NCBI GenBank assembly: GCA_028293625.1
Contig: JAQGOL010000012.1
Span: forward strand, 1 to 64,000
Length of the DNA: 64,000 bases
DNA from: Chthoniobacteraceae bacterium
GTDB lineage: Bacteria; Verrucomicrobiota; Verrucomicrobiia; Chthoniobacterales; Chthoniobacteraceae
Reading direction: 5' to 3'
Below the pieces are notes generated by a model that worked only from the letters and a program-made list of their open reading frames with translations, was not told the DNA's origin and ran no database searches. Each line of letters opens with the position of its first letter. Position 1 is the first letter of the stretch. Made by a program: the position numbers and the translations under genes. Shown piece after piece: positions 2,512-54,800 of this stretch.

Positions 2512-3282
2512 TCACTCAATGTGAGGTGCCAGATTCGGGACGACTTTCTTGAGCTCGTGGGCAACCATCCGGCCGAAGATCCGGCTGCCTTTTTCGTTCA
2601 AATGCGTGCCGTCCACCTGCTGTCCGCTGGTGTCTGCGGAGGGATTGGTCGGGTCGGCATTCTTTAACGGCGAAATCTCCAGGACTCCTTCCTTGCCCAT
2701 TTTTTCATACTCAGCGATCGACAAGGCGTGCAGGTCAATCAGCGGGACATTTTTCTCGGCGGCGATCGCCTTCACGGCATCGGCCCAAGGTTCCAGTTGA
2801 GGATTGATCTTTCCGTCGGCTCTCCAAGTTCGGCGGCTCAAGGAAGTCACCAGCACCGGTTTGATGTCGGCGGCAATGGCTTCCTCCACATATTGCGTCA
2901 TGTATTGCCTGTAGGTGGTTTGCGGGTCGGTTGCGCGCTCGCCGTGGCCGGGCTGATCGTTGTGGCCGAATTGGATCAGCACGTAGTCGGGTCGCATATC
3001 CAGAACCTTCTTCCATGAACTTTCTTTGATAAAGCTGCTGGAACTCCGCCCGCCCCTGGCGACATTGATGACCTGCACGTCGTCTTTCGTCGCGTTAGCG
3101 AAGCCTTTACCCCAGCCGGCGTTGTCGGTCACCGTCGAATCGCCTGCGAGAACGATATGGATTTTACCGGGCTGGAGAGCGGGTGTTGCCGGCTCTTCCG
3201 CCAAACTCGATGCGCCCAGCGCTAAGAACACTGCGGCGATGGCGCTAAAGGCAACCATTTCATTGAGCAGCTTGGTAGTCAT
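2512..3282 (-). CDS. Secreted rhamnogalacturonan acetylesterase (CE12, SGNH hydrolase)
   Basis: 256 residues with a signal peptide (hydrophobic to about 27, ending SSLAEE). SGNH blocks are all present: GDSTVTDNAGWG with the nucleophile Ser, NVARGGRSS, FGHND, and DGTHLNEKG near the C-terminus carrying the Asp/His pair. The GDSTVTD form is typical of rhamnogalacturonan acetylesterases (RhgT/YesT type), which remove acetyl groups from pectin backbones so that lyases and hydrolases can act. It is the last gene of the pectin locus, 50 nt after the pectinesterase gene and in the same direction. Confidence 0.85.
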   Translation of the reverse strand: MTTKLLNEMVAFSAIAAVFLALGASSLAEEPATPALQPGKIHIVLAGDSTVTDNAGWGKGFANATKDDVQVINVARGGRSSSSFIKESSWKKVLDMRPDYVLIQFGHNDQPGHGERATDPQTTYRQYMTQYVEEAIAADIKPVLVTSLSRRTWRADGKINPQLEPWADAVKAIAAEKNVPLIDLHALSIAEYEKMGKEGVLEISPLKNADPTNPSADTSGQQVDGTHLNEKGSRIFGRMVAHELKKVVPNLAPHIE

Positions 3283-3332
3283 TCAGATGAAGGGCAAATA
3301 GATCATGAACTAAGCCGTATGCCGACATTTCC

Positions 3333-28875: not shown

Positions 28876-29835
28876 ATGACTTTTACACGCTCCGCATCGC
28901 GTCCCATCTCCGTCGTAACCGGCGGCTCGGGGTTTCTCGGTTCGCATCTTACCGATCGGCTGCTTTTGGAAGGGCATCGGGTAATCGGACTCGACAATTT
29001 CATCACCGGCAACACGGCGAATATCGCGCACCTTTCGGGGAATGAAGATTACAAATTAATCAAGCAGGACGTTTCAAACTACATCTTCCTGCCTGATGAC
29101 ATTGATTTCATCTTCCACTTCGCCTCCCCGGCAAGCCCGATCGATTATCTCGAGCACCCGATCCCGACATTAAAAGTCGGCGCGCTCGGCACCCACAACG
29201 CCCTTGGACTTGCCAAGGCGAAAAAAGCGACCTTCCTGCTCGCGTCGACCTCGGAGTGTTATGGCGATCCGCTGATCCATCCGCAGCGGGAGGATTACTG
29301 GGGCAATGTCAACCCGATCGGGCCGCGGGGAGTCTATGATGAAGCCAAGCGATTCGCGGAGGCGATCACGATGGCTTATCACCGCTATCATCATGTCGAT
29401 ACAAAGATTGTTCGTATCTTCAATACCTACGGCCCCCGGATGCGCCTTCGCGATGGGCGCGTGGTGCCGGCCCTGATCGGGCAGGCTCTCACGGGCGAGC
29501 CGCTGACTATTTTTGGCGACGGGACGCAAACCCGCTCGTTTTGTTATGTGAGCGATTTGATTGACGGCATTTACAAGCTTGCCCTGTCTGACTTTCACGA
29601 GCCGGTGAATATTGGCAACCCGCGTGAGATGACCATCCAGCAGTTTGCTGAAGAGATTAAACGCATTACCCAGACCACCTCAGAAATCGAATATAGGCCG
29701 TTGCCGGTGGACGATCCGAAGGTGCGTCAACCTGATATCACCCGTGCTAAAAGCATTCTGCATTGGGAGCCGAAGGTCGCATTCGAGGAGGGGATCCGGA
29801 TCGCGATCGAATATTTTAAAACCCGCCTGAATTAA
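28876..29835 (+). CDS. UDP-glucuronate decarboxylase (UDP-xylose synthase)
   Basis: 319 residues, extended SDR. NAD-binding [15 protein letters not shown], active-site YDEAKR (Tyr-x-x-x-Lys), [32 protein letters not shown] and [14 protein letters not shown] are the UXS block. It makes UDP-xylose from UDP-glucuronate for surface polysaccharide, with NAD recycled. Downstream of an intrinsic terminator, so it is probably its own unit or the head of the next. Confidence 0.92.
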
Positions 29836-29929
29836 GATTTGAAGCCACTTTTTACTTTCCATTCCCATTCAAATGTTCGAGAAGCATAACCAGTTTCCCA
29901 GGAACACCCCTCCTAAGAAATCCCCCTCC

Positions 29930-30490
29930 ATGAAACTCTTTCTTTTTTGCGCGGCGACACTCACGTCTCTGACTCTCAATGGCCTTGCTCAGGCGCCAGT
30001 TGGCCCCGGAGCGGTCAAGCTTGGCAAAGTGCTGCCGGCTGTGGTCAAGACGCCTGAATTTCAAATCACCGGAGCCCAAAATAAGCGCTACAAGCTTGGT
30101 GAATGGCTCGAAGTGGAAGTCGAATTTGAAACCAAGCTTGAGGATATCGATGAGCTTACTTTCAAATACACGATGCTCGTTGAGAAAAAGATTCTCGATG
30201 GCGAAGTCACTTATGTGAACATCCCCAAGGGACGCGAGCACTACTCGGTGATGTATGTGGCGCCGCGCAGCCTTGAAAAGCTCGCAGGCGGCAAGGCGAT
30301 CACCGCCTCGGCGATTGAGAATGTCTGGGTGGAAGTTTCCCATAACGGACTGGTTCTCGACAAGGTGAGTCTCCGTCCGACGGCGATTCCCAATGCCCAG
30401 CATATTTCCAGTCTTGTTCTGAACAAGAATGAGACGCCTTTCGCGCCACTCTATTTTGACCGCTACGAGGCGATCAAAAAAAGCCGATAG
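29930..30490 (+). CDS. Amuc_1102-like secreted protein of the pilus-like locus
   Basis: 186 residues from MKLFLFCAATLTSLTL, a cleavable signal peptide (to about residue 23). The rest is a soluble beta-rich domain (QNKRYKLGEWLEVEVEFE, ELTFKYTMLVEKKILDGEVTY, VWVEVSHNGLVLDKVSL). Position as the first gene before PilM-, Amuc_1100- and secretin-like genes matches Amuc_1102 of Akkermansia, whose exact role is unknown. ATG 29873 lies upstream but its leader does not look secretory. It starts 94 nt after the UXS stop. Confidence 0.65.
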   Translation: MKLFLFCAATLTSLTLNGLAQAPVGPGAVKLGKVLPAVVKTPEFQITGAQNKRYKLGEWLEVEVEFETKLEDIDELTFKYTMLVEKKILDGEVTYVNIPKGREHYSVMYVAPRSLEKLAGGKAITASAIENVWVEVSHNGLVLDKVSLRPTAIPNAQHISSLVLNKNETPFAPLYFDRYEAIKKSR

Positions 30491-30514
30491 CGGATTCGGG
30501 TCAGATACAATTTC

Positions 30515-32197
30515 ATGGCTGCACCTAACCGTATCTTCAGTCTGGATCTCGGTACCCAGACTGTCGGAATCGCTGAATTTCACACCGGGAAAACCGGGGG
30601 GCTCGTCCTCGCAAACTATCGTTCCACCGGCTTGCTGGCGGATCCTGCCGCGGATGCTAGCCGTCTCGCGCAGGCCAGGATTGCGACGAGCGAGATGGTG
30701 GGCGCCTCCGGTCTTAAAGGCCAGAAGGTCAACTACTCTATTTCCGCGCAATCTGTCTTTACTCGCTTTGTAAAGCTGCCCGCGGTCGGCGAGGATCAGG
30801 CGGAGCAAATCGTTGCGTTTGAAGCGCAGCAGAATGTTCCTTTCCCGATTGATGAAGTTGTCTGGGATTACCAGTTGGTCGACACCGGCACGCCTGAAGT
30901 TGAGGTTGTGCTTGTGGCCATCAAGTCTGATCTTCTTGATGAGATCAATGGAGCTGTCGAGGACTCCGGTCTTCGTGCCAATACGGTCGATGTCTCGCCG
31001 ATGGCGCTCTATAATGCGTTCCGCTATAACTATAGCGACCAGGATGGATGCGCGCTTCTTATCGATATCGGCGCGCGGACAACCAACCTGATCTTCGTTG
31101 AACCGAAGAAGGTGTTCAGTCGCAGCATCGCCATTGGCGGTTCGAAGATCACCGAGGCGATTGCCAAGGACTTTAATGAACCGTTCGGCGCGGCCGAAGA
31201 ACGTAAGAAGCAGGATGGTTTTGTCAGCCTTGGCGGCGCCTATTCGGATCCGGATGATCCCGAAATTGCGCGTGTCTCCAAGATGATCCGCAATTCGATG
31301 ACTCGGCTGCATGCTGAGATTTCGCGTTCGATCAGTTTCTATCGTTCCCAGCAGCACGGCTCGCAGCCGGTGCGCGTGTTCCTGTGCGGCGGAAGCGCCA
31401 CGCTTCCTTACATGCGGGAGTTCTTCCATGAGAAACTTCAGTTGCCCGTGGAGTTCTTTAATCCGCTGCGCAATGTCGCCATCGGTCCGAATCTCAATGT
31501 GGACGAGATTGGCCGGCAGGCGCATACCCTCGGTGAAGTGGTGGGGCTTGCCTTGCGCAACATCGGCAGTTGTCCGATGGAGCTCAATCTGCGTCCGGTC
31601 AGCTTGGTTAAACGCCAGCGGATGGCCCGGCAGAAGCCTTTCATTATCCTGGCAGGCCTCTGTTTCCTCATGATTCTGGCCGCGTGGTGGGTCTACTTTG
31701 ATCACGCCACGGCGATCGCTAATGAAGAGGTTGCCAAGGTTGAAGAGCGTTTAGCTCCGCTCCAATCGATGGATGGCAAGATGAAGGCCGTTCAGGACGC
31801 CAAGAAAAAGCAGGAAGCGCTCGCCGCCCCGCTGCTCGCCGCGGTAACTGATCGCGGTTACTGGACCGAGATTATCAATGATATCAATTCCCGGCTGCCG
31901 GAGGATTATATCTGGATCGTATCGCTTGGCCTGCAGGAAGCGAAACCGAATGCCTCAACTTCTTCCTCTGCGAAGAACGCCCCGGCAAAGGACCCTCGGC
32001 CAGTGCTTCTGCTTCAAGGGCTTTACCTTGAGAATCCTAAAAACGCTCAAATCGTGGTCGACTTCATTGAGAAACTCAAGGCTTCGCCTCTGTATGAGGT
32101 CCGCGAGGATGAGATGAGGCGTGCCAATCCAAATGACACTGAATGGGCCTTTGACTACTCGGTGCCACTCGTTCTTAAAACTTCAATCAGCCACTAA
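30515..32197 (+). CDS. pilM: PilM-like ATPase fused to a PilN-like domain (Amuc_1101-like)
   Basis: 560 residues. Residues 1 to about 350 are an actin/FtsA-fold PilM (RIFSLDLGTQTVGIAEF, ALLIDIGARTTNLIF, VFLCGGSATLPYMREFF). From about 370 MELNLRPVSLVKRQRMARQK and a membrane helix (about 378-398) followed by a coiled coil and a ferredoxin-like tail form a PilN-like part. The two are normally separate inner-membrane platform proteins of type IV pili. The fusion is as in Amuc_1101. Its stop overlaps the next start (TAATG). Confidence 0.85.
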   Translation: MAAPNRIFSLDLGTQTVGIAEFHTGKTGGLVLANYRSTGLLADPAADASRLAQARIATSEMVGASGLKGQKVNYSISAQSVFTRFVKLPAVGEDQAEQIVAFEAQQNVPFPIDEVVWDYQLVDTGTPEVEVVLVAIKSDLLDEINGAVEDSGLRANTVDVSPMALYNAFRYNYSDQDGCALLIDIGARTTNLIFVEPKKVFSRSIAIGGSKITEAIAKDFNEPFGAAEERKKQDGFVSLGGAYSDPDDPEIARVSKMIRNSMTRLHAEISRSISFYRSQQHGSQPVRVFLCGGSATLPYMREFFHEKLQLPVEFFNPLRNVAIGPNLNVDEIGRQAHTLGEVVGLALRNIGSCPMELNLRPVSLVKRQRMARQKPFIILAGLCFLMILAAWWVYFDHATAIANEEVAKVEERLAPLQSMDGKMKAVQDAKKKQEALAAPLLAAVTDRGYWTEIINDINSRLPEDYIWIVSLGLQEAKPNASTSSSAKNAPAKDPRPVLLLQGLYLENPKNAQIVVDFIEKLKASPLYEVREDEMRRANPNDTEWAFDYSVPLVLKTSISH

Positions 32198-33132
32198 TGA
32201 GCGCGCTCAAAGAGAATAAGTTCCTCGCCGGATTCCTCGGCGTGATGGTGGTCGCCACTGGTGGCCTTGGGTTTCTATTGTATTCAGCGTCGGGCCGCTA
32301 CTCCGCGGCGATGAGCGATTTTGAAGACAAATCAAGGCAGCTTTACGAGCTCCAGACCAAAGCCCCGTATCCCGATGAGGCTAATCTGGAAAAGATGAAG
32401 GCCCAGACCAAGGAGCATCAGGATGCCGTGACAACGCTTCAAAAGAGCCTGCTCGCCAACCAGCTTCCGATGGAGTCGATTACTCCGGTTCAGTTTCAGG
32501 ACAAGCTGAAAGAATCGGTCGTAAGAGTCACAACCAGGGCTACTGAGAAGGGGATGAAGCTCCCTGAGAAGTTTTACATGGGATTCGATCCTTATCAGTT
32601 TGAACCGCCCAAGCAGGAAGCGGCATCGTTACTGGGCAAGGAGCTCAAAGCTCTTGAACTGGTCGTCATGACTCTGATTGATAGCCGGACGCAAGCCCTG
32701 ACTACTTTTGATCGCGCTCCGCTTCAGGAAGAGGGCGTCGATAAAGCCCGCGCGGCTAACAGCAAGCCGGATGGCAAACCCGGTGACAAAGAATCCGCAG
32801 TCAAGTCGCTGATCATCAGACGGCCGGTGACACTCGGATTTACGGGTGAACAAGGTGCCTTCCGAAATCTGCTCAACAATCTGGTCTCCTCGAAGGAACA
32901 ATTTTTTGTCCCTCGCAAGATCGACATCAAGAACGAGAAGTTGACGGGGCCTTCCAAAGCAACTGAGGCGGATGCGGCAGCGGCACCCGCGCCTTTCGAT
33001 CCAAGCGCTTCAGGCGGGGCTGTGGCGCCTGAGCCAAAAAAGCCGGCGTTGAAGTATATTGTCGGTGAAGAAAAAATCGATGTGACCATGCAACTCGATA
33101 TTGTCGATTTCGTTGAAGCCAGTGTGAAATAG
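32197..33132 (+). CDS. Amuc_1100-like PilO-type membrane protein
   Basis: 311 residues. One N-terminal membrane helix (about 9-30), a coiled-coil region (SGRYSAAMSDFEDKSRQLYELQ), then two ferredoxin-like halves joined by a linker rich in A, P and G near 265-285. Length and arrangement match Amuc_1100 (317 residues), the outer-membrane-associated TLR2-active protein of Akkermansia, itself a PilO-like structure. Gene order is identical. Sequence identity cannot be measured here, so homology is by architecture and order. Confidence 0.75.
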   Translation: MSALKENKFLAGFLGVMVVATGGLGFLLYSASGRYSAAMSDFEDKSRQLYELQTKAPYPDEANLEKMKAQTKEHQDAVTTLQKSLLANQLPMESITPVQFQDKLKESVVRVTTRATEKGMKLPEKFYMGFDPYQFEPPKQEAASLLGKELKALELVVMTLIDSRTQALTTFDRAPLQEEGVDKARAANSKPDGKPGDKESAVKSLIIRRPVTLGFTGEQGAFRNLLNNLVSSKEQFFVPRKIDIKNEKLTGPSKATEADAAAAPAPFDPSASGGAVAPEPKKPALKYIVGEEKIDVTMQLDIVDFVEASVK

Positions 33133-33136
33133 TTTT

Positions 33137-34150
33137 ATGGACTGGATTAAAAAACATTACGACCAGTTCGCGCTTGGCGTGATAGCTCTGGTGCTACTTG
33201 GTTTCTCAGGCTTCATTGCAATGAAGACCTTCAGCTTCAATCAGGCGTTTGCGGCACTCGAGACTGTGCCCCAGCGCAATGACAAGCTGCCTCCACTTGA
33301 TTTGGCGCCCGTGGCCGAGGCTCACGAAAAGTTAACCAAGCCCGTTTCCTGGGCGCCCAAGAAAAACTCGGGGTCACTTTTTGTTTCCATCGGCTATATC
33401 GTTGATCCCAATACCGGGAAACTGACTGCCCCCGGGCATACGTCGAGTGGTGGCTCGCTTCATCCTCCGGTGCCGGACAGCTATTTCCTAGACAACCATC
33501 TTGATCTGCTCTCGCCGACAGCGCTTGAGGACGATCCTGACAAAGACTTGTTCAGCAATCTTGACGAGTACCTTAACGGCGGGAAAAAGAATGCCGCGGG
33601 CGAGCCTGAATCGACCAGTCCAGTCGATCCGAAAGATCATCCCCCTTACTACACCAAGCTCTATTTGGAGCAATGGATTAAAGTGCCGTTCCTGCTTCTT
33701 TTCCAGAGTGTGGATGGCGATCCAGCCAAGCCGGAGACTCTCACGTTCGGAATCAATCCGAAGTCATTGAAGCAGCCTACCGAGTTCCTGAAAATCGGTG
33801 AAACAGTTCGGAATACCAAATTCCGGGTTGAAAAGTACGAAGCAAAGACCGCCTTTAATAAGAAGATCGAGGAAGAAGAAGATGTTTCCGAGTTGACGCT
33901 CAAGAACACAGAGACAGGTGAATCCGTGGTTCTTGTTGTCGCCAAGCTTACTGACTCGCCCGATTCGTACGCCGCTTTCACCTATATCTGGCCGCAGCCA
34001 CACCAGGCGATCAAGGTTAAAAAGCTTCAGGAATTTGTGCTTAAGCCGAATCTCCAGGAGAAATTCAAAGTCCTTGACATCAAAGCCGACCACGCGGTAA
34101 TAGCGCTGCCTGGTGGCGGTGAATACACAGTGCCTTTGCTTAAGAAGTAA
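33137..34150 (+). CDS. Amuc_1099-like membrane protein (PilP-position)
   Basis: 337 residues. An N-terminal helix (about 10-30, FALGVIALVLLGFSGFIAM) anchors a mostly soluble protein with a P- and G-rich linker around 80-120 and a C-terminal beta region ending VIALPGGGEYTVPLLKK. It occupies the slot of PilP, which links the inner-membrane platform to the secretin. It starts 4 nt after the previous stop. I do not recognise a named domain. Confidence 0.7.
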   Translation: MDWIKKHYDQFALGVIALVLLGFSGFIAMKTFSFNQAFAALETVPQRNDKLPPLDLAPVAEAHEKLTKPVSWAPKKNSGSLFVSIGYIVDPNTGKLTAPGHTSSGGSLHPPVPDSYFLDNHLDLLSPTALEDDPDKDLFSNLDEYLNGGKKNAAGEPESTSPVDPKDHPPYYTKLYLEQWIKVPFLLLFQSVDGDPAKPETLTFGINPKSLKQPTEFLKIGETVRNTKFRVEKYEAKTAFNKKIEEEEDVSELTLKNTETGESVVLVVAKLTDSPDSYAAFTYIWPQPHQAIKVKKLQEFVLKPNLQEKFKVLDIKADHAVIALPGGGEYTVPLLKK

Positions 34151-34267
34151 AGCACTCTCCCGCAGCCCCATCCCTCTCCTCCCCTCCAGAAATCCTAAAA
34201 CGTCGCCCGCTCGCGGTCACGTCACTAAAAAATTGCAGTTTCCATCCTTTAAACGCCGAGCTCATCC

Positions 34268-36904
34268 ATGATCAGACCCCCACTCGCCACCACTGTCGCC
34301 TCCTTAATAGGCGTACTAGTAATAAATCCCGCGTTCGCTGGGCCAGCCGTGCAAGGCTCGGTCCGGACGACGACCACCTACTCCGGAAGAGTTGAAGACG
34401 TAGCGACCCGCGAGGAAGCTCGCCGCGCTGATCGTTCCGAGCGTATCGGCCGCGAAGCGATCACCGTTGCGGAGCGTGCGATGGCTGACAAAGATTACGA
34501 GAAGGCATTCGCTGAGTACAAGCTGGCATGTGACAATATCCCGGTTGCTCCGAAGTCTGATGGGCTTTACAAGCGCGCATTGCGCGGCTTGTGCGATGCA
34601 GCGATCCATCTGGCAGAACAGCGTATTACCGAAGGACGTTATGCGGATGCCGAGTTGACGCTCAAGTTGATCACCGAGCATTATGACCCGCAATGCAAGG
34701 GTGCGGTTGTGATGCTCCGTAATCTGGAAACTCCCGGGTATTACAATAAGACCATTACTCCCAAGTTCCGTGCGAACGTGGAAGAAGTGAAACGGTTGCT
34801 GGTCGAAGCCGATGGTCTTTATCAGAGCGCCCGCTACGACATCGCCTTCAAGCGTTGCGAGCAGGTTCTCAATCTTGATCCGTATAATATCGCGGCTCGC
34901 AAGATGGAGGAGAAGATCAACTTCGCCCGGGATAATTACGCGGATGCCGCTTACAATGAAGCGCGGGCTCGCGCGGTATGGAAAGTGAACAAAGGGTGGG
35001 AAAACCCCGTGCGCAAATTTGGTTTGAAGGGGAGCGAAATCATCGTTCAGCCTAAAAGCACGAACGAAGGCACCACCCGCATTGAGCAAAAGCTCAACCG
35101 GATCATTATTCCCAAGCTCGAGTTCCGCGAAGCAACCATTCGTGAAGCTGTCGATTTCCTGAAGAAAAAGAGCATCGATCTCGACACCCAGGAGTCCGAT
35201 CCGACGCGCCGTGGTGTTAATATCGTGCTCAAGCTTGAAGGCGGCGGCGCCATTGGCGGTGCTGCGCCAGCTGAGATTCCCCTTAATATTCCCGGAATTG
35301 AACCGGCTGCGGGAGGCGCGCCTGCCGCCAATCCGATCCTTCCGGTCGGAAATCCGAGCGACGCGCGGATCACCATCTCGCTCACCAACGTTCCGATCAA
35401 GGTTGCGCTCGATTACGTGACGCAGCTCGCCAGTCTTAAATACAAGATCGAGCCGTTCGCCGTGTCGATCGTGCCGCAGGGCACTCCGATCGAGACCTTG
35501 CAGAACAAGGAATTTAAAGTGCGTCCCGGCTTTATCGGTTCGCGCACGGCTGCCGCCGGCGGAGACAATGCCCTGCTTCCCGCCGGGCCTGCCGACGCAA
35601 CCAGGGGGACTGGCTCCTCGATCGCCGGCCGTCTTGAAGCCAAGGAATTCCTCGTTTCCCAGGGAATCCCATTCCCTCCCGGAGCTTCGGCAACCTATCT
35701 GGCCGGCAGCAGCCGTCTGGTCGTGCGCAATACTCAGGAAAACCTCGATCTTCTCGAGATCCTGATTGCGGCCACCACCGGCGACGATTTGGCCGCACAG
35801 GTTGAAATCGAATCGAAATTTGTCGAAATCACGCAGAGCAATCTCAAGGAACTGAGCTTTGACTGGTTGCTTGGACAGTTCAATGTCGGCAAGGGCGGTG
35901 TCTTTGCAGGTGGCGGAACTGCGGGGACCTCACCGGGCACCAACGGCTCGGATTTCCCGTTCGTGGCTCCGGGCGGCTCGCCAATTGGCACTTTGCCGAT
36001 CACGGCTGGCAACCGCAGCGGCCAGACAGCGTTGACCGCGAGCGCAATCGACGCGCTTCTGTTCGGAACCGCCGGCGCTTCCCGACTCGCTCCTGCAATC
36101 GGCGCCATCTCCGGTGTCTTCACCGATCCTCAGTTCCAGGTAGTCATTCGAGCGCTGAATCAGAAAAAAGGCGTTGATCTTCTCTCCGCACCACGTGTGA
36201 CGACGAAGAGCGGTCAAAAAGCCGTCATCGAGATTATCCGGGAATTCCGTTACCCAACTGAATTCGACCCACCCCAGATTCCGCAGAACTTCGGCAATAC
36301 CGGTGGCACAACTTCGTTGATCCCCACCTTGTCGACGCCTCCGAGTTCGTTCCCGGTCACGCCGACCACCCCGACGCAGTTTGACACGCGTAACACCGGT
36401 GTAACGCTGGAAGTCGATCCCGTCATCGGGCCTGATGGTTACACGATCGACTTGAACCTGGTTCCGCAGGTGGTGGAGTTTGAAGGCTTCATCAACTACG
36501 GCAGCCCGATTCAGACGACGTCGACCAATGCGCTTGGCATTTCGACCACGAACATCATTACGCCTAACGTCATCAACCAGCCGATCTTCAGCACTCGTAA
36601 AGTGACGACTGCTGTGACGATCTTCGACGGACAAACCGTCGTGCTTGGCGGATTGATGCGTGAAGATGTGCAGAAGGTGGAAGACAAGGTACCGCTACTT
36701 GGCGATATCCCCTTTGTCGGACGCCTCTTCCGTTCGAGCGTCGATCAGCATCTCAAGCGTAATCTGGTCATCTTCGTCTCCGCACGATTGATCAATCCCG
36801 CGGGTGAACCGGTTCATCTTGAAGAAGAGACCGAGGAAGTCGTTGAGACGCTTTCGGTGCCTGAGGTGGCCGCTCCCGAGCTGCTTCCTTTGATGTCGAA
36901 GTAA
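34268..36904 (+). CDS. Secretin of the pilus-like locus (Amuc_1098/PilQ-GspD type)
   Basis: 878 residues. Signal peptide (to about 25), a TPR-like helical region (about 60-230), a short N-domain starting IIIPKLEFREATIREAVDFL, a Gly-rich middle, then a C-terminal secretin domain with the family core RKVTTAVTIFDGQTVVLGGLM and VPLLGDIPFVGRLFRS, ending in ARLINPAGE. It should form a multimeric outer-membrane ring. The 117-nt gap upstream has no ORF. It ends the locus; coaE follows at 7 nt. Confidence 0.92.
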   Translation: MIRPPLATTVASLIGVLVINPAFAGPAVQGSVRTTTTYSGRVEDVATREEARRADRSERIGREAITVAERAMADKDYEKAFAEYKLACDNIPVAPKSDGLYKRALRGLCDAAIHLAEQRITEGRYADAELTLKLITEHYDPQCKGAVVMLRNLETPGYYNKTITPKFRANVEEVKRLLVEADGLYQSARYDIAFKRCEQVLNLDPYNIAARKMEEKINFARDNYADAAYNEARARAVWKVNKGWENPVRKFGLKGSEIIVQPKSTNEGTTRIEQKLNRIIIPKLEFREATIREAVDFLKKKSIDLDTQESDPTRRGVNIVLKLEGGGAIGGAAPAEIPLNIPGIEPAAGGAPAANPILPVGNPSDARITISLTNVPIKVALDYVTQLASLKYKIEPFAVSIVPQGTPIETLQNKEFKVRPGFIGSRTAAAGGDNALLPAGPADATRGTGSSIAGRLEAKEFLVSQGIPFPPGASATYLAGSSRLVVRNTQENLDLLEILIAATTGDDLAAQVEIESKFVEITQSNLKELSFDWLLGQFNVGKGGVFAGGGTAGTSPGTNGSDFPFVAPGGSPIGTLPITAGNRSGQTALTASAIDALLFGTAGASRLAPAIGAISGVFTDPQFQVVIRALNQKKGVDLLSAPRVTTKSGQKAVIEIIREFRYPTEFDPPQIPQNFGNTGGTTSLIPTLSTPPSSFPVTPTTPTQFDTRNTGVTLEVDPVIGPDGYTIDLNLVPQVVEFEGFINYGSPIQTTSTNALGISTTNIITPNVINQPIFSTRKVTTAVTIFDGQTVVLGGLMREDVQKVEDKVPLLGDIPFVGRLFRSSVDQHLKRNLVIFVSARLINPAGEPVHLEEETEEVVETLSVPEVAAPELLPLMSK

Positions 36905-36911
36905 AGGGCGA

Positions 36912-37514
36912 ATGCCCGTTCTTGGCATCACCGGAGGAATCGCCACGGGAAAGTCGACATTTGTTCGCGCTTTCCTGGGGCGATTGCCAGCCAGGCTTTT
37001 CGATGCGGATGCCTGTGCGCGAGATCTTCTGGAAAATGATAGCGAGGTGCGTGAGCGCCTTCATGAGACGTTCGGGCTAAACCGCCCGAACGTCGAGCCA
37101 GGCGCCGAAAGGGCGTGGCTGCGGGAGGTGGTGTTCTCCGATGCAGCAAAACGCCGGCAGCTGGAAGCGATTCTGCATCCGGTGATCCGGGAACGCTGGG
37201 TGGTTCAGGCGCGCGAATGCGCGGTGGCCGGCGGCTGGTTTTGCGTCGATATTCCGTTGCTCTTTGAAACAGGAGCGGAAAGTTACTTCGACCGCATTAT
37301 TGTGGTAGCCTGTTCGGGCGAACGACAGCGCGCCCGGCTCAGGGAAGACCGAGGACTCGACGAGTCGATGTCAGAGAAGATCATCGCCTCGCAGCTCGAC
37401 CTCGGCCTGAAAATAACTAAAGCTGATCATCTCATTTGGAATGATTCCACTATTTCCAATCTTGAGGGGCAAACCGCTCTTCTGGCGACCTATCTGAGTG
37501 CACGTTATGGATGA
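36912..37514 (+). CDS. coaE: Dephospho-CoA kinase
   Basis: 200 residues. P-loop GITGGIATGKSTF at the start, DADACARDLLEND, HPVIRERW, and VDIPLLFETGAESYFDRIIVVAC are the CoaE blocks. It phosphorylates the 3' hydroxyl of dephospho-CoA, the last step of CoA synthesis. It starts 7 nt after the secretin and its end overlaps the rho start by 8 nt. Confidence 0.94.
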   Translation: MPVLGITGGIATGKSTFVRAFLGRLPARLFDADACARDLLENDSEVRERLHETFGLNRPNVEPGAERAWLREVVFSDAAKRRQLEAILHPVIRERWVVQARECAVAGGWFCVDIPLLFETGAESYFDRIIVVACSGERQRARLREDRGLDESMSEKIIASQLDLGLKITKADHLIWNDSTISNLEGQTALLATYLSARYG

Positions 37515-38850
37515 TATTGTTTCTTCACATCAAGGACCGGGCGCTTCTCCGGACGCGGAACCTTCCGCAACCACCGGCGCGCCTGTCTCAATTCCCAGAG
37601 AACTCTGGATCGATGAACTGAATGGCGAACCGCTCAATGGTTTGCTTGAGCGATGCGACGCCTTGGGCCTTCGCCTCAATGCCGACAAAACACGGCATCA
37701 GATCGTCTTTGACCTTTTGAAAGCCTACGCCTCGCGCGGCACCACTCTCTTTGCCGATGGCGTCGTGGAGCTCTCCGCCCAGGGAAGTGGCTTTCTGCGC
37801 TGGCCGCGCTTTAACTTCCGTTCGCTCCCGCAGGACGTTTTTGTCTCCACGCAAACCGAACGGCAACTTTATCTGCGCAATGGAAACCGGCTCAGCGCCA
37901 GACTGCGGACACCGCGTGACCGCGAAAAATTCTTTGCCGTGGATGAAGTCATTTCCATTGAAGGGATACCGGTTGCGGAATGGCACGAGACCACTGAGTT
38001 CGACCGCCTGACCGCGTTGCATCCAACCGAGAGGATCGTGCTTGAAACGCCGCGCTCGGTCAGCACCCGGGCGATGGATTTAATCGCGCCGTTGGGCCGC
38101 GGTCAGCGCGGCCTGATTGTCGCGCCGCCGCGCACAGGCAAAACGATTTTGTTGAAGGATATTGCCCGCGCGGTTCTGGCCAATTCGCCGGAGACCTCGC
38201 TGATTTTATTGCTCGTCGATGAACGGCCGGAGGAAGTCACTGACTTTAAAAATTCGCTCGAAAACTGCGAGATCTACAGTTCAACCTTCGATGAGAGCGC
38301 GCAACGGCATACGGCGGTGGCTGAGATCGTGAGCGATCGCGCCAAACGCCTCGTGGAGTTGGGGCGCCATGTAGTGATCCTGCTTGATTCCATCACGCGG
38401 CTTTCCCGCGGTTACAACAACCTGATGGGCGGCAAGGGGCGCACCATGTCGGGCGGCATCGACTCGAAGGCATTGGTGAAACCGAAGAAGTTTTTCAGCG
38501 CGGCGCGCAACACCGAGGAAGGCGGCAGCCTGACCATCCTTGCCACGGCACTGATCGAGACCAACAGCCGCATGGACGACCTCATTTTTGAGGAATACAA
38601 GGGGACCGGCAACATGGAGGTCCGCCTCGACCGCACCCTGGCTGATAAACGGATGTTCCCGGCAATCAATATTCTCGAATCGGCCACCCGGCGCGACGAG
38701 TTGCTTTATCACCCGCAGGAATTCGCTAAAATCAACGTGCTCCGACGCCAATTGGCGGCGCTGCCGCCGGTGGAAGCCACTGAGGTGATGATTCATGCGA
38801 TCAAGGCCACCAACTCTAACGCCGAGCTCTTGCTCGCCGGGCTGCGCTGA
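37507..38850 (+). CDS. rho: Transcription termination factor Rho
   Basis: 447 residues. N-terminal RNA-binding domain with GVVELSAQGSGFLRWPRFNF and the cold-shock fold; Walker A LIVAPPRTGKTILLKDIA, Walker B VVILLDSITRL, Q- and R-loops in SGGIDSKALVKPKKFFSAARNTEEGGSLTI. It is a hexameric RNA helicase. ATG 37507 was preferred to GTG 37498; it overlaps coaE. The stop overlaps the rnd start (TGATG). Confidence 0.96.
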   Translation: MDDIVSSHQGPGASPDAEPSATTGAPVSIPRELWIDELNGEPLNGLLERCDALGLRLNADKTRHQIVFDLLKAYASRGTTLFADGVVELSAQGSGFLRWPRFNFRSLPQDVFVSTQTERQLYLRNGNRLSARLRTPRDREKFFAVDEVISIEGIPVAEWHETTEFDRLTALHPTERIVLETPRSVSTRAMDLIAPLGRGQRGLIVAPPRTGKTILLKDIARAVLANSPETSLILLLVDERPEEVTDFKNSLENCEIYSSTFDESAQRHTAVAEIVSDRAKRLVELGRHVVILLDSITRLSRGYNNLMGGKGRTMSGGIDSKALVKPKKFFSAARNTEEGGSLTILATALIETNSRMDDLIFEEYKGTGNMEVRLDRTLADKRMFPAINILESATRRDELLYHPQEFAKINVLRRQLAALPPVEATEVMIHAIKATNSNAELLLAGLR

Positions 38851-41341: not shown

Positions 41342-41644
41342 AGTTCTCATTGCCGGCAAGCGGCCGGGTCACCTTCAGGGCGGGCCGGCTGCAACGGCAG
41401 AGCCGCGTCGGTTTGCGGTGGCCTGGGTATTCTGAAAAATTTTCAGACAAAGCTGTATACAGTTTAGTACGCACCTTTACGTGCCGGCAACGGCAGTGTG
41501 TAATGGGATGTTTGTTTTCCGGTTGCGGGATACTCCTCGATTGCTTTCATCGTGTTGCTTGCAATATTATCAGGCAACGGTCCCCAGTTCGTCTGCGCTT
41601 TCTGCCGTACAAACACGGGCCGTGATAATCTTTGCCTCCTTAAA
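41342..41644. other. Intergenic region before the twin-propeller giant
   Basis: Two palindromes: TCTGAAAAATTTTCAGA (41431-41447, arms of 8) and CTGTATACAG (41453-41462). They fall about 180-210 nt upstream of the giant gene's start, in a stretch more AT-rich than its surroundings, and may be regulatory. No RNA gene is seen. Confidence 0.35.
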
Positions 41645-44600
41645 ATGATAACATGTTCAAGCCGGACTTCCGGCGCGGTCCGGTTGCTCTCTCTTTTGTT
41701 CATCATTTGGGCCACCCAAGGCTGGGGCGCTCCTGCCGTTCTGGTTCAGCCGGTGACCAGTCAGGTTGTGGCCGTGGACGCTCCCGTCGACTTCAACGTG
41801 AGCGCGGAAGGAAACGGCGCCTTGAACTATCAATGGTTTCAGAACGGGCGGCCGCTTGCGGGCGAAACGGGAAGCAGACTTACTCTCGGCAAGGTCCGGT
41901 ATTCGGATCGCGGCTATTATCAGGTGAGACTCACCGACTCAACGGGCAGTCAAACCAGTCATGCGGGATTTCTGAATGTATTGGTACCCGCTGAGATCAT
42001 TCCTTTCGCGCAAGATTACTCCGCGCCGGTGCCTCCGGGCTTGTTGAATGTGGTCGCGATGGACGTTGGAGCCGATCACAAGCTTGCATCGGCGGCAATC
42101 AATGGTGTTGCGCTTAAGTCGGATGGAACCGTCATTTCGTGGGGCGAATCGGTGGGGGCGGCTCCCTTGGGAGTAAAGGATGTCGTGGCTGTTTCGGCGG
42201 GCATTTACCATAGCCTCGCACTGAGATCGGACGGAACAGTGGTTGCCTGGGGAAGTAATCCGATATTAACGACCGTGCCGGCCAATCTATCGGGAGTCGT
42301 GGCAATCTCCGCGGGAAGTGCGTATAACCTTGCGTTGAAGGAAAACGGAACGGTGATCGCCTGGGGTGCGAATGCCGTCAATGACATGACGGTCCCCGCT
42401 GGGCTTTCCGATGTAACCGCGATTTCCGCGGGACAGCTTCATGCGCTTGCATTGAAATCTGATGGCACGGTGGTGACCTGGGGATCTTCCGGTGTAAGTA
42501 GTCTAACTGTTCCTGCGGGACTAACCGGCGTGACGGCAATTTCCGCGGGATACCTTTACAGCCTTGCATTGAAAACGGACGGCACCGTGGTGGGCTGGGG
42601 CGAGAGCGGGTATAACGATTTAAGCGCGCCTTCAGGGTTGTCCGAAGTGGTCGCGATTTCAGCAGGCGACGGGTGCAACCTTGCTTTGAAATCGGATGAG
42701 ACAGCTGTCGCCTGGGGTGGCAATACAATCGCCGAACACAGAGGAGTGGTTGCCGTGGCCGCCGGCTTTACGCGAAACTTCGCGCTGAAAAAAGTGGTCC
42801 AACCGCTTATTACGACTCAACCTCTTCCCGCGGTTCAAACATTGAATGAACCAGATCGCTTAACCTATTCGGTCACCGCGACAGGCGGCGGACTTAACTA
42901 CCAATGGAAGAAGGACGGAGTAACGCTCGCGGGCGAGACCAGCGATTCATTGCTTATCCAGGAGCTCAGCTCGTATAACGCCGGGAATTACACGGTCACT
43001 GTCAGCAACGCCGTCGGCAGCGTTACGAGCGATATGGCCGTTCTTCTACTAAGAGGCCCCACTTTTATCCGGGATCCCGAGCCAAGCCAAGTAGCGAAGG
43101 TTGGAACGTCCGTGACATTTAACGCAGCCGTCACAGGTTCCGGCTCACTGGCTTATCAGTGGATGCGGAACGGATTCCCGATCGCGGGCGCAACCGGCAG
43201 CTCGCTTACATTGAGCCAGGCACGATTTAGTGACCGGGGTTATTATCAGCTAAGGGTTACCGATTTACTTGGCACAGCGACGAGCCGTGCCGGATTTCTC
43301 AATATCGCGCGCTCCGGTGAACTCCGCGTCTGGGGATATAACGCGGAAGGACAAAACACGCCGCCAGCGGGGCTGACGGACATTGTGGCGCTTTCTGCCT
43401 CCGACAACCACACGCTTGCGTTAAAGTCTGACGGCACCGTAGTCGCCTGGGGCGATGATGACGTGCAGGTCCCTTCAGGACTCTCCGGCGTTGTCGCGGT
43501 CTCGTGCGAAAGTTGCAATGTCGCGCTTAAGTCTGATGGAACCATCGTGGCGTGGGGGAAAGACAAGTATTCCCGGAATGCGTTATTTGCCGGGCTCTCG
43601 GAGATTGTAGCGATCAGCGACCATTTTGCCATCAAGGCGGATGGCACCGTGGTGGCTTGGGCTTTTGAGGGGGACTTCAAAAGGAGTCTCCATGAAGGGT
43701 TGGGACACACGACGGCAATCACCACCGGCGGCGGCCGTGTCGTTACACTACGTTCTGATGGAAGCGTCGTTGACTGGAATTCAGACGGTTCGCCTGAGAA
43801 CAGTCCGCCTGCCTTCCAGACGGGCGTAGTTGCAGTCGCCTCGGGCGGCAGCCATTGCCTGGCACTCAAATCTGATGGGACGGTGGTTGCCTGGGGTAAC
43901 AGACTCTTTACCGCAGTGCCAGTAGGGCTCTCCGAGGTGACAGCTATTTCCGCGGGTGCTTTCCATAGTGTTGCCCTTAAGTCCGATGGAACGGTTGTGG
44001 CATGGGGTTCCAACGACTCGTTTTTGTATTCAAACTCCAATCAGAGCATCGTGCCTGCTGACCTTGGTTATGTGGTCCTGATTGAGGCCGGCAGTGCCTA
44101 CAATCTCGCTTTGCAGGTGCTCGTTCCCACTCCCATCACCAACCCGGCAACCAACCTCCAATCTCATTCCGCGACCTTCAATGCCGAGATTAATCCGGAG
44201 GGTTTTCCAGCCAGTCTCTTTTTTCAATTCAGTGCCGATTCACTTTCGTATGAAAACTCAACACCTCCGCAGCAAGTCGACGGGGCTGTGTTCCCAGTGG
44301 CTGTCAGCTTTATCAAGGCCGGTTTGCTGACCGATACGACTTATCATTACCGCGCGGTGACGACCAACGGACGTACAACCAGCTATGGCACTGACCGCAC
44401 TTTTACAACTTTGCCCCCGCCGCCCTCAACCTCCGGCACAAGTGCAAAGCAAGTCACCACCGGCTCCGCAATCCTTTCGGGTTTAATCAATTCGAATGGG
44501 ATCGCCGTGAGTGCCTATTTTGAATACGGTCCTATTTCAGCTCCTGCGGCACAGACAGCCCCTCAGGAATTTGGCCCGGGTTCGACAACAGTCACGCAGC

Positions 44601-46612
44601 TCTTAAGCGGCTTGGAAGCGGAGCATATTTACCGATTTCGTCTCGTCGCCACCAGCGATGCGGGAACAACTTACGGCGATTTCCATACCTTTTCGACCAT
44701 CTCCAAGGCAAGACCCACCGTGAAAACCGGCACGGTATCGGAAGTCGCGCCCGGCAACGCCATTCTCGGCGCGCAGGTCAATCCGAACGGGTTTCTCACC
44801 ACCGTTTATTTCGAATACGGCGTGACGGCTAACTATGGCAGCGAGACTGCGGTGCAAAACATAGGAGTCGGCCATGATGACGTGGTTTTGAACCGTAAGA
44901 TAACCGATTTTGCTTCCAACCACCTTATCCATTTCAGAGTAGTCGCCTCCAATATCAACGGCATTAGTTACGGCGATGACCAGACATTTACGAGCAGTAT
45001 CACGAAGCCTATCGTGGCAGGCGGATCTGTCAGCCCGATAAATGCCAGCAACATCACTTTTCAGAGTTTCTGTATTCCGAATGGTTCTGCCACCAAGGCG
45101 CATTTTATCTACTCCTTTGGAACAGATGAACCTTTGGCAACCGCCGAGCAGGAGATTGGAAGCGGCTATGAGCGTCTGCCTGTTTTTGCCACAATCACCG
45201 TTCCTGATCCTGCCCGCTCGTGCCGTTATCAACTTGTGGCCACCAATGCCGCGGGAACCGTCTATGGGGATACCCATACTTTCGAGCCCAAGATTTTTGC
45301 CGTGGCCGACACGGCGTCTATCAATGGTGCTGGTTCGATTCGGATCGACGTGCTTGCCAATGACTTCTCACCCGCCGGCCATGCACTCTCAGTCAGCGCG
45401 GTCGCGCAGGGATCGTCAGGCACCGTCTCGATTAACTCCGACCAGTCCCTTCAGTATTTGCCCGGCCGCAAGTTCACTGGGTCTGACAGTTTCATCTATA
45501 CCATCAGCGACGGACACGGCGCCTCGGCGGACGCGATGGTTGAAATCCACAATGTCCCGGTAAAAAGCGGAGGGCGGTACGTCGGACTTGTCCTTTCGGA
45601 ACCATTGCTGCATGGGCAGTCCGGTTACATCAATGCCACGCTAACAACCAAGGGCACGCTTACAGGTCAGTTACAATTTGCGGGAGCCAATTACGTGCTG
45701 AAAGGCGTGGTCAGTTCGGAGGGTAAATATGCGCAGATCATCCAGCGTCCTCATTTGAATCCACTTTTTCTATCACTTTCAACCGGCAGCGATGCGGCAC
45801 TGCTAAGCGGATTCATTTCAGAAAGCGAGGCCGCCGGTAATCGAGCAAGTATCGTGGCAAAAAAATCGTCGTTTACAAAAGCAGCGCCCTGCCGGCTGCC
45901 TGGAATATACACGGCGTTGTTGCAGCCCGATGAAAGCGCAGAGAAATCAGAGGAGCCTCGCACCAGCGGATACGCTACTATTCAAATTAACGCGCTTGGA
46001 ATTGCCCGGACAGTGGGCAGGTTGGGCGATGGCACGCCGATTTCCGTTGGGAGCCTTGTATGCGACGAGATGGAACTCGCGTTCTATACCGGCCTGTATG
46101 GCAAAAAGCCGAATGAGAGAGGAAGTCTTTTTGGAAACGTGCGTTTCGAACTTATCAGTGACATCCAGCAGGCGACCGGAGCGCTCTCCTGGCATAAACC
46201 ACCGCAGAGTTCGGGAGCGTTTTACCGTGACGGCTTCACCGTAACAACCACCCTGACGGGCTCGATGTATTGGCCAACGTCTCCCGCGCTCACGCTCGTT
46301 GGCGAGCAATATAACGCTTACGCGACTTTTACGGATGGCAACCTTGATAAATCGAGTCTGGAAGCGGAGCTAACCAAGACTTTAAGTATCTCCGTGGCAT
46401 ATAAGGTGACCGCCCTCACGAAGTCCGATGACCGCCTGGCCGTGCGAATTTCTCCAAAGAGCGGGCTTTTTTCCGGTAACTTTCGCGACAAGTTCTCCGG
46501 CATGACCCGGACTTTCACGGGTGTGCTTCTGCAAAACGACAACATAGGAATCGGACTCTTTTCCGGAAGCAATGAAATGGGTTCGGTCCGGCTTCAACCA
46601 AGACAAAACTAA
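41645..46612 (+). CDS. Giant secreted Ig / RCC1-propeller / FN3-like protein
   Basis: 1,655 residues with a signal peptide (to about 27). An Ig-like domain (about 27-115, NYQWFQNGRPLAGETGS), an RCC1 block with seven repeats of the type VVAISAG...LALKSDGTVVAWG (about 132-382), two Ig-like domains (385-555), a second seven-repeat RCC1 block (558-824), four FN3-like domains (825-1217), a cadherin-like Ig domain (1217-1302, VLANDFSP), and a 350-residue C-terminal domain of unknown type. Likely an exported or surface protein that binds a glycan or protein partner (inference). The longer ATG upstream was rejected because the signal starts at 41645. Confidence 0.85.
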   Translation: MITCSSRTSGAVRLLSLLFIIWATQGWGAPAVLVQPVTSQVVAVDAPVDFNVSAEGNGALNYQWFQNGRPLAGETGSRLTLGKVRYSDRGYYQVRLTDSTGSQTSHAGFLNVLVPAEIIPFAQDYSAPVPPGLLNVVAMDVGADHKLASAAINGVALKSDGTVISWGESVGAAPLGVKDVVAVSAGIYHSLALRSDGTVVAWGSNPILTTVPANLSGVVAISAGSAYNLALKENGTVIAWGANAVNDMTVPAGLSDVTAISAGQLHALALKSDGTVVTWGSSGVSSLTVPAGLTGVTAISAGYLYSLALKTDGTVVGWGESGYNDLSAPSGLSEVVAISAGDGCNLALKSDETAVAWGGNTIAEHRGVVAVAAGFTRNFALKKVVQPLITTQPLPAVQTLNEPDRLTYSVTATGGGLNYQWKKDGVTLAGETSDSLLIQELSSYNAGNYTVTVSNAVGSVTSDMAVLLLRGPTFIRDPEPSQVAKVGTSVTFNAAVTGSGSLAYQWMRNGFPIAGATGSSLTLSQARFSDRGYYQLRVTDLLGTATSRAGFLNIARSGELRVWGYNAEGQNTPPAGLTDIVALSASDNHTLALKSDGTVVAWGDDDVQVPSGLSGVVAVSCESCNVALKSDGTIVAWGKDKYSRNALFAGLSEIVAISDHFAIKADGTVVAWAFEGDFKRSLHEGLGHTTAITTGGGRVVTLRSDGSVVDWNSDGSPENSPPAFQTGVVAVASGGSHCLALKSDGTVVAWGNRLFTAVPVGLSEVTAISAGAFHSVALKSDGTVVAWGSNDSFLYSNSNQSIVPADLGYVVLIEAGSAYNLALQVLVPTPITNPATNLQSHSATFNAEINPEGFPASLFFQFSADSLSYENSTPPQQVDGAVFPVAVSFIKAGLLTDTTYHYRAVTTNGRTTSYGTDRTFTTLPPPPSTSGTSAKQVTTGSAILSGLINSNGIAVSAYFEYGPISAPAAQTAPQEFGPGSTTVTQLLSGLEAEHIYRFRLVATSDAGTTYGDFHTFSTISKARPTVKTGTVSEVAPGNAILGAQVNPNGFLTTVYFEYGVTANYGSETAVQNIGVGHDDVVLNRKITDFASNHLIHFRVVASNINGISYGDDQTFTSSITKPIVAGGSVSPINASNITFQSFCIPNGSATKAHFIYSFGTDEPLATAEQEIGSGYERLPVFATITVPDPARSCRYQLVATNAAGTVYGDTHTFEPKIFAVADTASINGAGSIRIDVLANDFSPAGHALSVSAVAQGSSGTVSINSDQSLQYLPGRKFTGSDSFIYTISDGHGASADAMVEIHNVPVKSGGRYVGLVLSEPLLHGQSGYINATLTTKGTLTGQLQFAGANYVLKGVVSSEGKYAQIIQRPHLNPLFLSLSTGSDAALLSGFISESEAAGNRASIVAKKSSFTKAAPCRLPGIYTALLQPDESAEKSEEPRTSGYATIQINALGIARTVGRLGDGTPISVGSLVCDEMELAFYTGLYGKKPNERGSLFGNVRFELISDIQQATGALSWHKPPQSSGAFYRDGFTVTTTLTGSMYWPTSPALTLVGEQYNAYATFTDGNLDKSSLEAELTKTLSISVAYKVTALTKSDDRLAVRISPKSGLFSGNFRDKFSGMTRTFTGVLLQNDNIGIGLFSGSNEMGSVRLQPRQN

Positions 46613-51893: not shown

Positions 51894-54800
51894 TCATGGA
51901 GAGAGAAGGATTCGATAGAAGCGGCGGTTGCCGGGAGGATTGCTTTCAACCACCGTGAGTGTCGAATTGGTGGCCACCTCCTCATTTCCCACGGGCGCCC
52001 ATGTCAGGAGATCGCTGCTGACTTCAACCCGGTAGCGCAACCCGGGCGTGGTGGTGAACGTAATCGACACTTTGGCGGTCTCGCGCGTGAATTCCGTTAA
52101 TTGCGTCAGCGCATTGGAGCGGCCCGGAGTGGGAAGGCTCAGCGCGCGAATCATGGCGCCGCCGTCCGGGAAACGGCCCTCCGTGCGATCCTCCGTCTGG
52201 GGGCCGAATACGACCGAGTCGATGAGTGTGCCGTCCGGTGCGGAAAGCACCAGCGCTTCGCCGCCGCCCGCGAGCTTGAAGTTGGCGTGAAGCTCCGGAT
52301 TGCCGGCGCTGTTTTCCAAGGCCTCGTTGTCCGCCCAGACCAGCAGGCGTCCGCCGGCGGGGATCGTATAACCATTCGGCACGATGAATTGCGAAGGGAG
52401 CCCGGACTGATCGCTCAGCTGCCAGTTGGCGAGGTTCACCGGCGTGCCGGTCGGGTTATAGATTTCAAACCAGTCGTCGGCGTGTCCGTCCGCCGGATCC
52501 GGATAGGAGGAATTGGTCGCCATCCATTCATTGATGCGCAAAGCGGGCCACGTCGCCGTGCCGGTGTAATGGATGGTCAACGTTGTTGAGCCGAGCAGGT
52601 TTCCGGACGTCCCGAGCGCATTGATCACGATCGTATTGTCGCCGGGCGCAAGAAGGTAAGTGGCGCTCCATGCGTTGACTGACGACCAGACCACGCCCAA
52701 TTCGGTTCCCTTGGCGGTGATGCTCTTTGTTCCGATTGGCGCGGTGCCGCTCAGGGTGATCGTGCCGGTGTCGGTGCTGAAACTCGTCGGCCCGGTGACG
52801 GTGAAACCTGAGGCCACTGTCGCGAGTTGCGAGAGGATGTAATTGCGCCGTGCGGCCACATAATCCTTCACCCCCTGCACGCCCGTGGCATTGACTCCCT
52901 GTGCAAGCAGCGCGTTGTGGATCAGGTCGATGCGCGCATTGGCCGCAAGCAGCGGCCCGTTGACCGCGTCACTGAAGGCGCGCCAGTAGCTTCGGCGGAA
53001 AGTGATGTTGTTGCGGAATTTGAGCATCAACGAATCGGCCAGCGATTCATTGCCGACATGCTCGGAAGTGTTCGTGAAAAGATTCGACGTGGCCGAATCG
53101 CCGACCTGTCCAAACGAGAAATCGATATCCCACGGAATCATCGCCCAGCGGCCGGCGGGCGGCTTGTACACATACATGTTCTTGCCGATGCTCCAGCCGT
53201 AGGAATCCCAGTTGCCCGCGATCCGCTGCAATGCCATCGCGCGCATCCACGAGTCGATATCGACCAAGGTGGAAACCTGCGTCTGATAGGCCGTGCCATT
53301 CGGTTCGTTGTGCGCCGCGACAAGCGCGAAGAAGTCCGCGAAATTATTGTCGAGCACGTCTCCGGCACGCGGCGCCCAAAGCCAGCGGTAGCGCGCCGTT
53401 TTTTTCACACCACCCGTTGTCGTGAAATTGCCGAGAGTCGCGCGGACGTCGCCCAGAGCGCTCATCGCGTTATCCTGAAATTCGACCCAGTCCTGGGACT
53501 TGTGCATGACGCCCTGGTCGTTGTTCGGAAACCATTCCTTAAGAAACTCACCGCCCGGCTGCTGGGTATCTTCGAGCACTGACTGGCGTTGCTGGCCATT
53601 GACGAAGACGCGCACAAAGCGGCGGTGAATCGCCGGGACGCCGAGCTTGCGGGCGATCCACCAGGCAAGCTGTTCGCGCTGAAAAGCCGCATCGTCTCCG
53701 ACCGATCCCGGCAGCGCGAGGATGCCGGCCGTCTCGCCGAGCAACGGATCGTCAGTCGGAAAGTTCAATGTGTAATCGCACGGCGCGCCCGTCGGCCCGC
53801 TGAATCCCGGCGTGTGCGCCCAGCTGCCGCTGTATTGGGCCGTCGCGTTATAAATCACGCGATCCCCGCCGTAGACGAAAGTAATGTCGAGCGGCGCATT
53901 GCTGTTTTTCTCGCGCACGGCCCATCGGTCGGCGGTCGCTTTGGTCATCCACATTCGATAGACGCCAAAATCGCCGGTTGGGACACGATCGCCCCAGCGC
54001 ACCAGGCATTCGCGGACCGGTGCGTCGTCAGGGAAAGTCGCGGACGCGCCCGCCGTGTCGGCCGCCACGACGCGGAAGGCCGCGAGCACGCCGGAGGTTT
54101 GCGCGGGAATTTGCGCGGAGAAAAGGCCGCCGCCTATCGGTGCCATCGCCACGCTCGCAAGCGTGGCGCCGGGATCGATGCGGTATTGGAGCTGCACGCC
54201 GTTGAGCGGGTCCGGATCGGATACGCGCGCATAGACCACCACCGGTTGTCCGCCGTGCGGAAGGATCGGCCGATGGGTCACCTCGCTGATGGCCGGGCCG
54301 GAATTGGTGGCCGCGCGCGAGTTCGGCGCACCGGGTGTGCCGAGCGCTCCGGAGGTCAGTATGTAACCGCTCGCCTCCAGCCAGCTTCCCCTGAGCCGCA
54401 AAAGAATTTCAGGCGAGCCGCGCAACCACTTCACCTTTGCGCGAATCGTGGCGGTCGTGCCGGCGGGAATCGTGGCGGTCAGCGGTGTGAAGACGCGGTT
54501 GGAAGTGTCGCCGCGATCTGTCGCACGAAGATGGAGCGCGCCGTTTTCGACCGTGGAGGTCTCCTGTGTCCCTTGAAAGGTCCAGCCTGCCGCGCCGGAA
54601 CTGAAGGCGCCGTTCGTGATGAGATTGGTACCGCCCGATCTGATGATCTCGACGTCGTCGACAAGGCATTCGCCTTTGCCGAGAAGAAAGAGCTGAAGCT
54701 GATTGGCAGGCGCCGCGCCCATGCCGTTGTCGAGCACGCCTGTAAGTTCAATCGTTTTCCAGTCGCTCACCGCCGAGCTGTCGCTATCGGCCCATGAAGC

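Follow-up and report, generated by a model that had tools for sequence, protein, structure and literature searches.

Amuc_1100 of Akkermansia muciniphila has been studied as a probiotic outer-membrane protein acting on TLR2, and its native job is unsettled. Its gene is part of the Amuc_1098–1102 cluster, which combines MUL2 (Amuc_1099–1102) with the secretin PilQ (Amuc_1098). All five proteins are enriched in the envelope fraction of A. muciniphila (PMC5332112), the secretin is the most abundant outer-membrane protein of this species (PMC4960237), and a further study attributes to Akkermansia MUL2 the attachment to and capture of glycans (PMC13174399). The same study had already described the cluster outside Akkermansia, reported a CoaE-Rho (dpck-ttfr) flank order for Akkermansiaceae and termed the locus less conserved in Chthoniobacterales (PMC13174399). 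The window analysed here, a stretch of 64,000 nucleotides from a Chthoniobacteraceae bacterium (assembly GCA_028293625.1, contig JAQGOL010000012.1), carries a corresponding locus of five genes at positions 29,930–36,904, the products of which are referred to below by their family numbers (1102, 1101, 1100, 1099 and 1098). Our analysis indicated that these genes very probably encode part of a type IV pilus machine split over two loci of the same genome: they would provide its PilMNOP alignment complex and its secretin, and the second locus its other half.

The locus has the five genes, order, equivalogs and CoaE-Rho flank of A. muciniphila Amuc_1098–1102, and differs in its host, a Chthoniobacter relative. 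It resembles the PilMNOPQ set of type IVa pili (Myxococcus, Pseudomonas, Thermus) in gene order, in the folds of or sequence matches to PilM-N-O-P and in its secretin, whereas here PilM and PilN are fused, an extra 1102 stands in front, the motors are at another locus, and PilP is replaced by a larger transmembrane (TM)-anchored protein with an EF-hand-like loop. With the GspL-GspM-GspC-GspD set of type II secretion systems (T2SS) it shares an actin-like/periplasmic fusion, a ferredoxin-like partner, an HR domain and a secretin, but hidden Markov models (HMMs) assigned PilM and PilN rather than GspL, and a PilT gene is linked to it. Family models, matches to PilM and PilN, an invariant L-x-P motif, and the PilO and PilP/GspC-HR folds led us to read the five genes as a type IV pilus base. 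Pairing with the motors is based on the single full-length PilM, a motor operon on another contig (C6), motor genes adjoining the cluster in relatives, co-occurrence across the phylum, and the set found in A. muciniphila.

Locus and host

The genes of the locus and its flanks are as follows.

29930..30490, + strand: Amuc_1102-family secreted/periplasmic protein (NF042424 91 bits, cut-off 55; phmmer to 7dsz 3e-8)
30515..32197, + strand: Amuc_1101-family PilM-PilN fusion (NF045709 697 bits, cut-off 650; PF11104 135 bits)
32197..33132, + strand: Amuc_1100-family PilO-like protein, 311 aa (NF038287 270 bits, cut-off 180)
33137..34150, + strand: Amuc_1099-family PilP/GspC-like protein (NF042425 197 bits, cut-off 50)
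34268..36904, + strand: Amuc_1098-family outer-membrane secretin with a long N-terminal region (NF042912 881 bits, cut-off 750)
36912-37514, + strand: flanking dephospho-CoA kinase, CoaE (Pfam), outside the machine
37498-38850, + strand: flanking transcription terminator Rho (own sequence and homologues beside related loci), outside the machine
28876..29835, + strand: flanking UDP-glucuronate decarboxylase-like epimerase (PF16363/PF01370), a conserved upstream neighbour outside the machine

All five open reading frames lie on a single strand and are nearly contiguous. The longest frame of the first gene spans 29873-30490, and the in-frame ATG at 29930, the likelier start, opens a Sec-type signal peptide, in agreement with an earlier note on this sequence that had set the start there and called the first product secreted. 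The same note had proposed homology to Amuc_1102–1098 in the same order; this was borne out, as the curated NCBIfam equivalog cut-offs were exceeded by all five proteins. Plain Pfam gave no match for the 1102-, 1100- and 1099-like proteins, and the NCBIfam models resolved all three. The order is 1102-1101-1100-1099-1098 with CoaE and Rho downstream; 69 of 70 assessable relatives had the same order, and the epimerase-like gene stood upstream of the cluster in 52 of 80 related loci. Given the five family matches, the Akkermansia gene order and the shared flanks, the locus is assigned by sequence to the family already described (MUL2 plus secretin, CoaE-Rho flank included). The 1102, 1101 and 1100 proteins were about 23–40% identical to their A. 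muciniphila counterparts. The host was correctly noted as not being Akkermansia: its closest named relatives were Chthoniobacter/Spartobacteria metagenome-assembled genomes (MAGs), with up to 65% identity of 1101, and Akkermansia-type genomes belong to the same class and a different order. The host is a soil-type relative of Akkermansia that is related to Chthoniobacter rather than a member of the Akkermansiaceae. In contrast to the reduced conservation stated for Chthoniobacterales (PMC13174399), the intact locus occurred with its genes in complete order in many Chthoniobacterales MAGs.

Components of the predicted pilus base

The 1101 protein comprises a PilM part (residues 1–350), an ELNLRP motif at approximately 357–361, a TM helix near 377–395 and a PilN-like periplasmic part. 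It scored 155 bits against the pilM model TIGR01175 (cut-off 133) and 17 bits against the GspL model TIGR01709 (cut-off 65), which places it outside the GspL family. In 3jc8, an architectural model of the Myxococcus pilus machine, a profile built from 16 distant homologues matched both PilM, at 9e-68, and PilN, at 3e-10. Pfam found no PilN domain in 1101, but the profile search of PDB sequences does match PilN. The ELNLRP motif resembles INLLP, the N-terminal tether motif of PilN; its residues L359 and P361 were invariant in 16 of 16 homologues, and the membrane helix follows the motif. These matches indicate that 1101 unites PilM and PilN in a single chain, as had been proposed. It was the sole full-length PilM in the genome, which otherwise gave two weak partial matches, one of them within a T2SS-like locus on contig C20.

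The 1100 protein consists of an N-terminal TM helix, a coiled coil and a ferredoxin-like periplasmic domain, and the 311-residue sequence matched the Amuc_1100 crystal structures at 2e-12 by phmmer. An AlphaFold2 model based on 49 homologues (mean predicted local distance difference test score, pLDDT, 85) superposed on Amuc_1100 (6kny) with Z 23.9 and 1.9 A over 169 residues. The next best match was Pseudomonas PilO (2rjz; Z 10.2, 2.1 A over 91), and unrelated structures scored approximately Z 7. An unlike structure would have spoken against the proposed homology, and the predicted fold instead agreed with Amuc_1100. The model thus identifies 1100 as a PilO-like partner in the pilus base. In an A. 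muciniphila-type genome (G113), Amuc_1100 agreed with the crystallised protein 6lad at each of 287 residues. The Amuc_1100 family would represent an ordinary PilO-like, inner-membrane-anchored member of a pilus base carried by most of the phylum.

The 1099 protein has an N-terminal TM anchor, an EF-hand-like loop at residues 133–144 and an HR-type beta domain at 170–337. The best four structures after realignment of its AlphaFold2 model (pLDDT 89) were PilP of 3jc8 (Z 9.6), the GspC HR domain 3oss (8.9), GspB (7.9) and the PulC HR domain (6.8), all of them secretin-docking or secretin-anchoring proteins. This ranking comes from a second aligner, and the PilP value derives from an architectural model; Foldseek by itself found no significant fold match for the 1099-like protein. 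On the basis of the model, 1099 is assigned a PilP/GspC-type secretin-binding fold. Residues 133–144 form a 12-residue EF-hand-like calcium loop of the pattern D-x-D-x-D-G-x5-E, here DPDKDLFSNLDE, and the corresponding loop in A. muciniphila is DPDNDGFTVQEE. A relaxed form of the pattern fitted 47 of 49 aligned homologues, the loop being near-invariant and missing in a few lineages; an EF-hand profile matched it weakly, in support of the loop.

The 1098 protein matched the secretin family PF00263 with 116.5 bits and, by phmmer, GspD/PilQ structures. Together with the folds of 1100 and 1099, this agrees with the earlier designation of the last three products as a PilO-like protein, a protein in the PilP position and a secretin. 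Further full-length secretin genes of the Amuc_1098 type occurred outside the cluster in G113 (C1:1979191-1981593, 989 bits), G066 (three in all) and other genomes. As for 1102, its Sec-type signal and the absence of the class III prepilin motif from all 68 homologues indicate a secreted periplasmic or surface accessory, not a pilin precursor.

Motor operon and its linkage to the cluster in relatives

The earlier note had reported that no pilB, pilT or pilin genes adjoin the cluster. This holds for the neighbourhood: a regular expression found no class III prepilin motif with hydrophobic tail in the window, and no T2SSE or T2SSF gene (motor/platform) was found on the 92.7-kb contig of the cluster. 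It does not extend to the genome, as the search that had been suggested as a check for a motor-less system recovered a PilB2-PilT-PilB-PilC-prepilin operon on one strand of contig C6. The C6 PilT scored 446 bits (cut-off 319), and the gene after pilC matched PF07963 (24 bits, cut-off 21), indicating a prepilin with a class III signal and a candidate filament subunit. PilB and PilC of this operon were identified by superfamily, gene order and relatives. In the same region (L039 9882-14526), the operon holds PilC together with two ATPases of the PilB type that share 43% identity; each has MshEN domains and a Walker A motif. Contig C20 carries a separate T2SS-like set (L043 1820-6858) with GspL/M-, GspK-, J-, I- and H-like genes, as judged from order and N-termini, and a tandem PilT pair nearby.

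Among the matches listed, motor genes adjoined the cluster in at least five related genomes and in three arrangements, with strong matches to the C6 proteins and in the C6 order. In G015, a single strand carries PilB2-PilT-PilB-PilC, four pseudopilin-like genes, 1102-1101-1100-1099-1098, one further gene and CoaE-Rho. In G055, 1101-1100-1099-1098 and a second secretin (1098') are followed on one strand by PilB2-PilB-PilT-PilC. Both genomes belong to the phylum of the host and to another class. In three MAGs (G115–G117: bog_1451, Bin_23R and palsa_1439), which probably represent one lineage, the motor genes PilC-PilB-PilT-PilB2 and the cluster meet tail to tail, separated by a single gene. Several other candidates were not counted: genes resembling PilT or PilC close to the cluster in L095 and L118, which reached only 221–307 bits against the C6 proteins, appear to be other paralogues, the PilB genes on C86 of G120 are on a contig other than that of the cluster, and PilT genes on the cluster's contig in G112 and G016 lie 10–15 kb off and outside a motor operon.

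The A. muciniphila-type genome G113 has one PilM, one PilC, a PilB2-PilB-PilC-prepilin operon and, elsewhere, a tandem PilT pair; its PilB2, PilB and PilC share 56, 63 and 56% identity with the C6 proteins. Thus A. muciniphila, the best-studied member, also holds the partner set in dispersed form. Directly after its pilC lies a prepilin-type gene (L163 5704-6372) with 26% identity to the gene in the same place in the present genome, and its product is a candidate pilus subunit that is neither Amuc_1100 nor Amuc_1102.

Co-occurrence was assessed in 115 genomes of the phylum (the strong-1101 and single-PilC tallies are our own counts). A strong 1101 was present in 99, all of which (99/99) had PilC and PilT over cut-off, and no sampled genome carried the cluster without PilC and PilT. 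Nearly every genome had one PilM, at the 1101 place, and 1101 was present in each of the 18 genomes that have just one PilC-family gene. PilC was missing from six genomes, two of 0.9 Mb in the order of the host and four of one family, and the same six had no 1101, 1100 or 1098 beyond noise and no PilT over cut-off. The hypergeometric probability of this joint absence was 3e-6 if the genomes are independent; as the six fall in only two clades, they represent two losses rather than six.

Proposed machine and alternative explanations

Based on these results, we infer a single machine, encoded by the two loci together, that makes a retractable filament. The cytoplasmic actin-like PilM part of 1101 would be tied via the PilN motif to the membrane helix and the periplasmic PilN-like part, and the set of 1101, 1100, 1099 and 1098 would span from the inner membrane to the secretin in the outer membrane, with the HR-type domain of the membrane-anchored 1099 docking on 1098. 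PilB2, PilB, PilT, PilC and the prepilin of C6 would drive extension and retraction and form the platform and the filament, so that a filament built and retracted by these motors on PilC could be received by the 1101–1098 set. By analogy with Akkermansia MUL2, the filament might serve attachment or polysaccharide capture. It is conceivable, although doubtful, that the pilus of Verrucomicrobiota is a recognisable type IV variant with fused PilM-PilN, an enlarged PilP bearing a conserved calcium-binding EF-hand-like loop, two divergent PilB ATPases from one operon and the secreted 1102, and that it is used for calcium-sensed hauling of polysaccharides to the cell surface rather than motility.

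Several observations weigh against the assignment of both loci to one pilus machine. The filament and its retraction are predictions from gene content. The C6 PilB and PilC scored below both the PilB/PilC and the GspE/GspF cut-offs, and HMMs alone cannot separate a pilus from a T2SS at this point, so the argument is carried by PilT and the gene neighbourhoods. The cluster and the C6 operon are on different contigs, and their pairing therefore rests on relatives and the single PilM. The adjacent arrangements were picked by inspection among the matches listed rather than by a complete survey, and the five genomes are thus a lower bound, not a rate. Several additional PilB/GspE, PilC/GspF and PilT genes are present in the genome. 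Finally, 10 of the 115 genomes had PilC and PilT without a strong 1101, and none of these ten had another PilM match at E 1e-15.

An unlikely alternative is a genuine type IV pilus alignment complex whose partner motor is another PilB/PilC set (on C13, C32, C20 or C1) and not that of C6. The genome would allow this, as it has five PilC-like genes and several PilB-like ones. However, the motors adjoining the cluster in relatives matched C6 strongly and in C6 order, in a comparison made with the C6 proteins, and A. muciniphila, with its single PilC, has a C6-type operon.

It is quite unlikely that the set belongs to a T2SS, in which GspL, GspM, GspC and GspD share the four folds. GspL is likewise an actin-like and periplasmic fusion, 1099 also matches the GspC HR domain (Z 8.9), 1098 matches GspD structures best, and the C6 PilC reached 415 bits against a GspF cut-off of 424. 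These similarities are countered by 1101, which passes the pilM model, fails that of GspL and matches the PilM and PilN chains as a profile, by the retraction-type PilT inside the linked operon, and by the separate C20 locus with GspL/M- and H/I/J/K-like genes.

The distinct envelope machine without motor ATPase or pilin that the earlier note had suggested, for which a static glycan-uptake channel would be one example, is very unlikely: the 92.7-kb contig has neither motor nor pilin, and the block order is kept across the phylum, mostly without adjoining motors, but the genome holds a motor operon that adjoins the cluster in at least five others, neighbourhoods that already disfavour this explanation, PilM and the PilN motif, as the components most diagnostic of motor coupling, are retained, and the cluster never occurred without PilC and PilT in the sample.

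For the two-locus pilus, the named partners (PilB2, PilB, PilC, PilT and prepilin), here and in A. muciniphila, make the hypothesis testable by knockout. The literature searched, a scope outside which the central Akkermansia genetics study falls, contained no published link from the locus to a pilB/pilC operon and no PilP/GspC fold for 1099. The motor-operon link, the PilP-type fold and EF-hand-like loop of 1099, and the A. muciniphila candidate pilin beside pilC are possibly new, and no priority is claimed for them.

Elsewhere in the window, positions 2512-7161 on the minus strand encode a GDSL esterase, the uronate isomerase UxaC and a GH28 polygalacturonase, a putative pectin-degradation neighbourhood that fits a plant-polysaccharide lifestyle. 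Two large predicted proteins were also found: one of 1686 aa with RCC1 repeats and Ig and cadherin-like domains (41552-46612), and one of 1649 aa with CotH kinase and lamin-tail domains (51894-56843).

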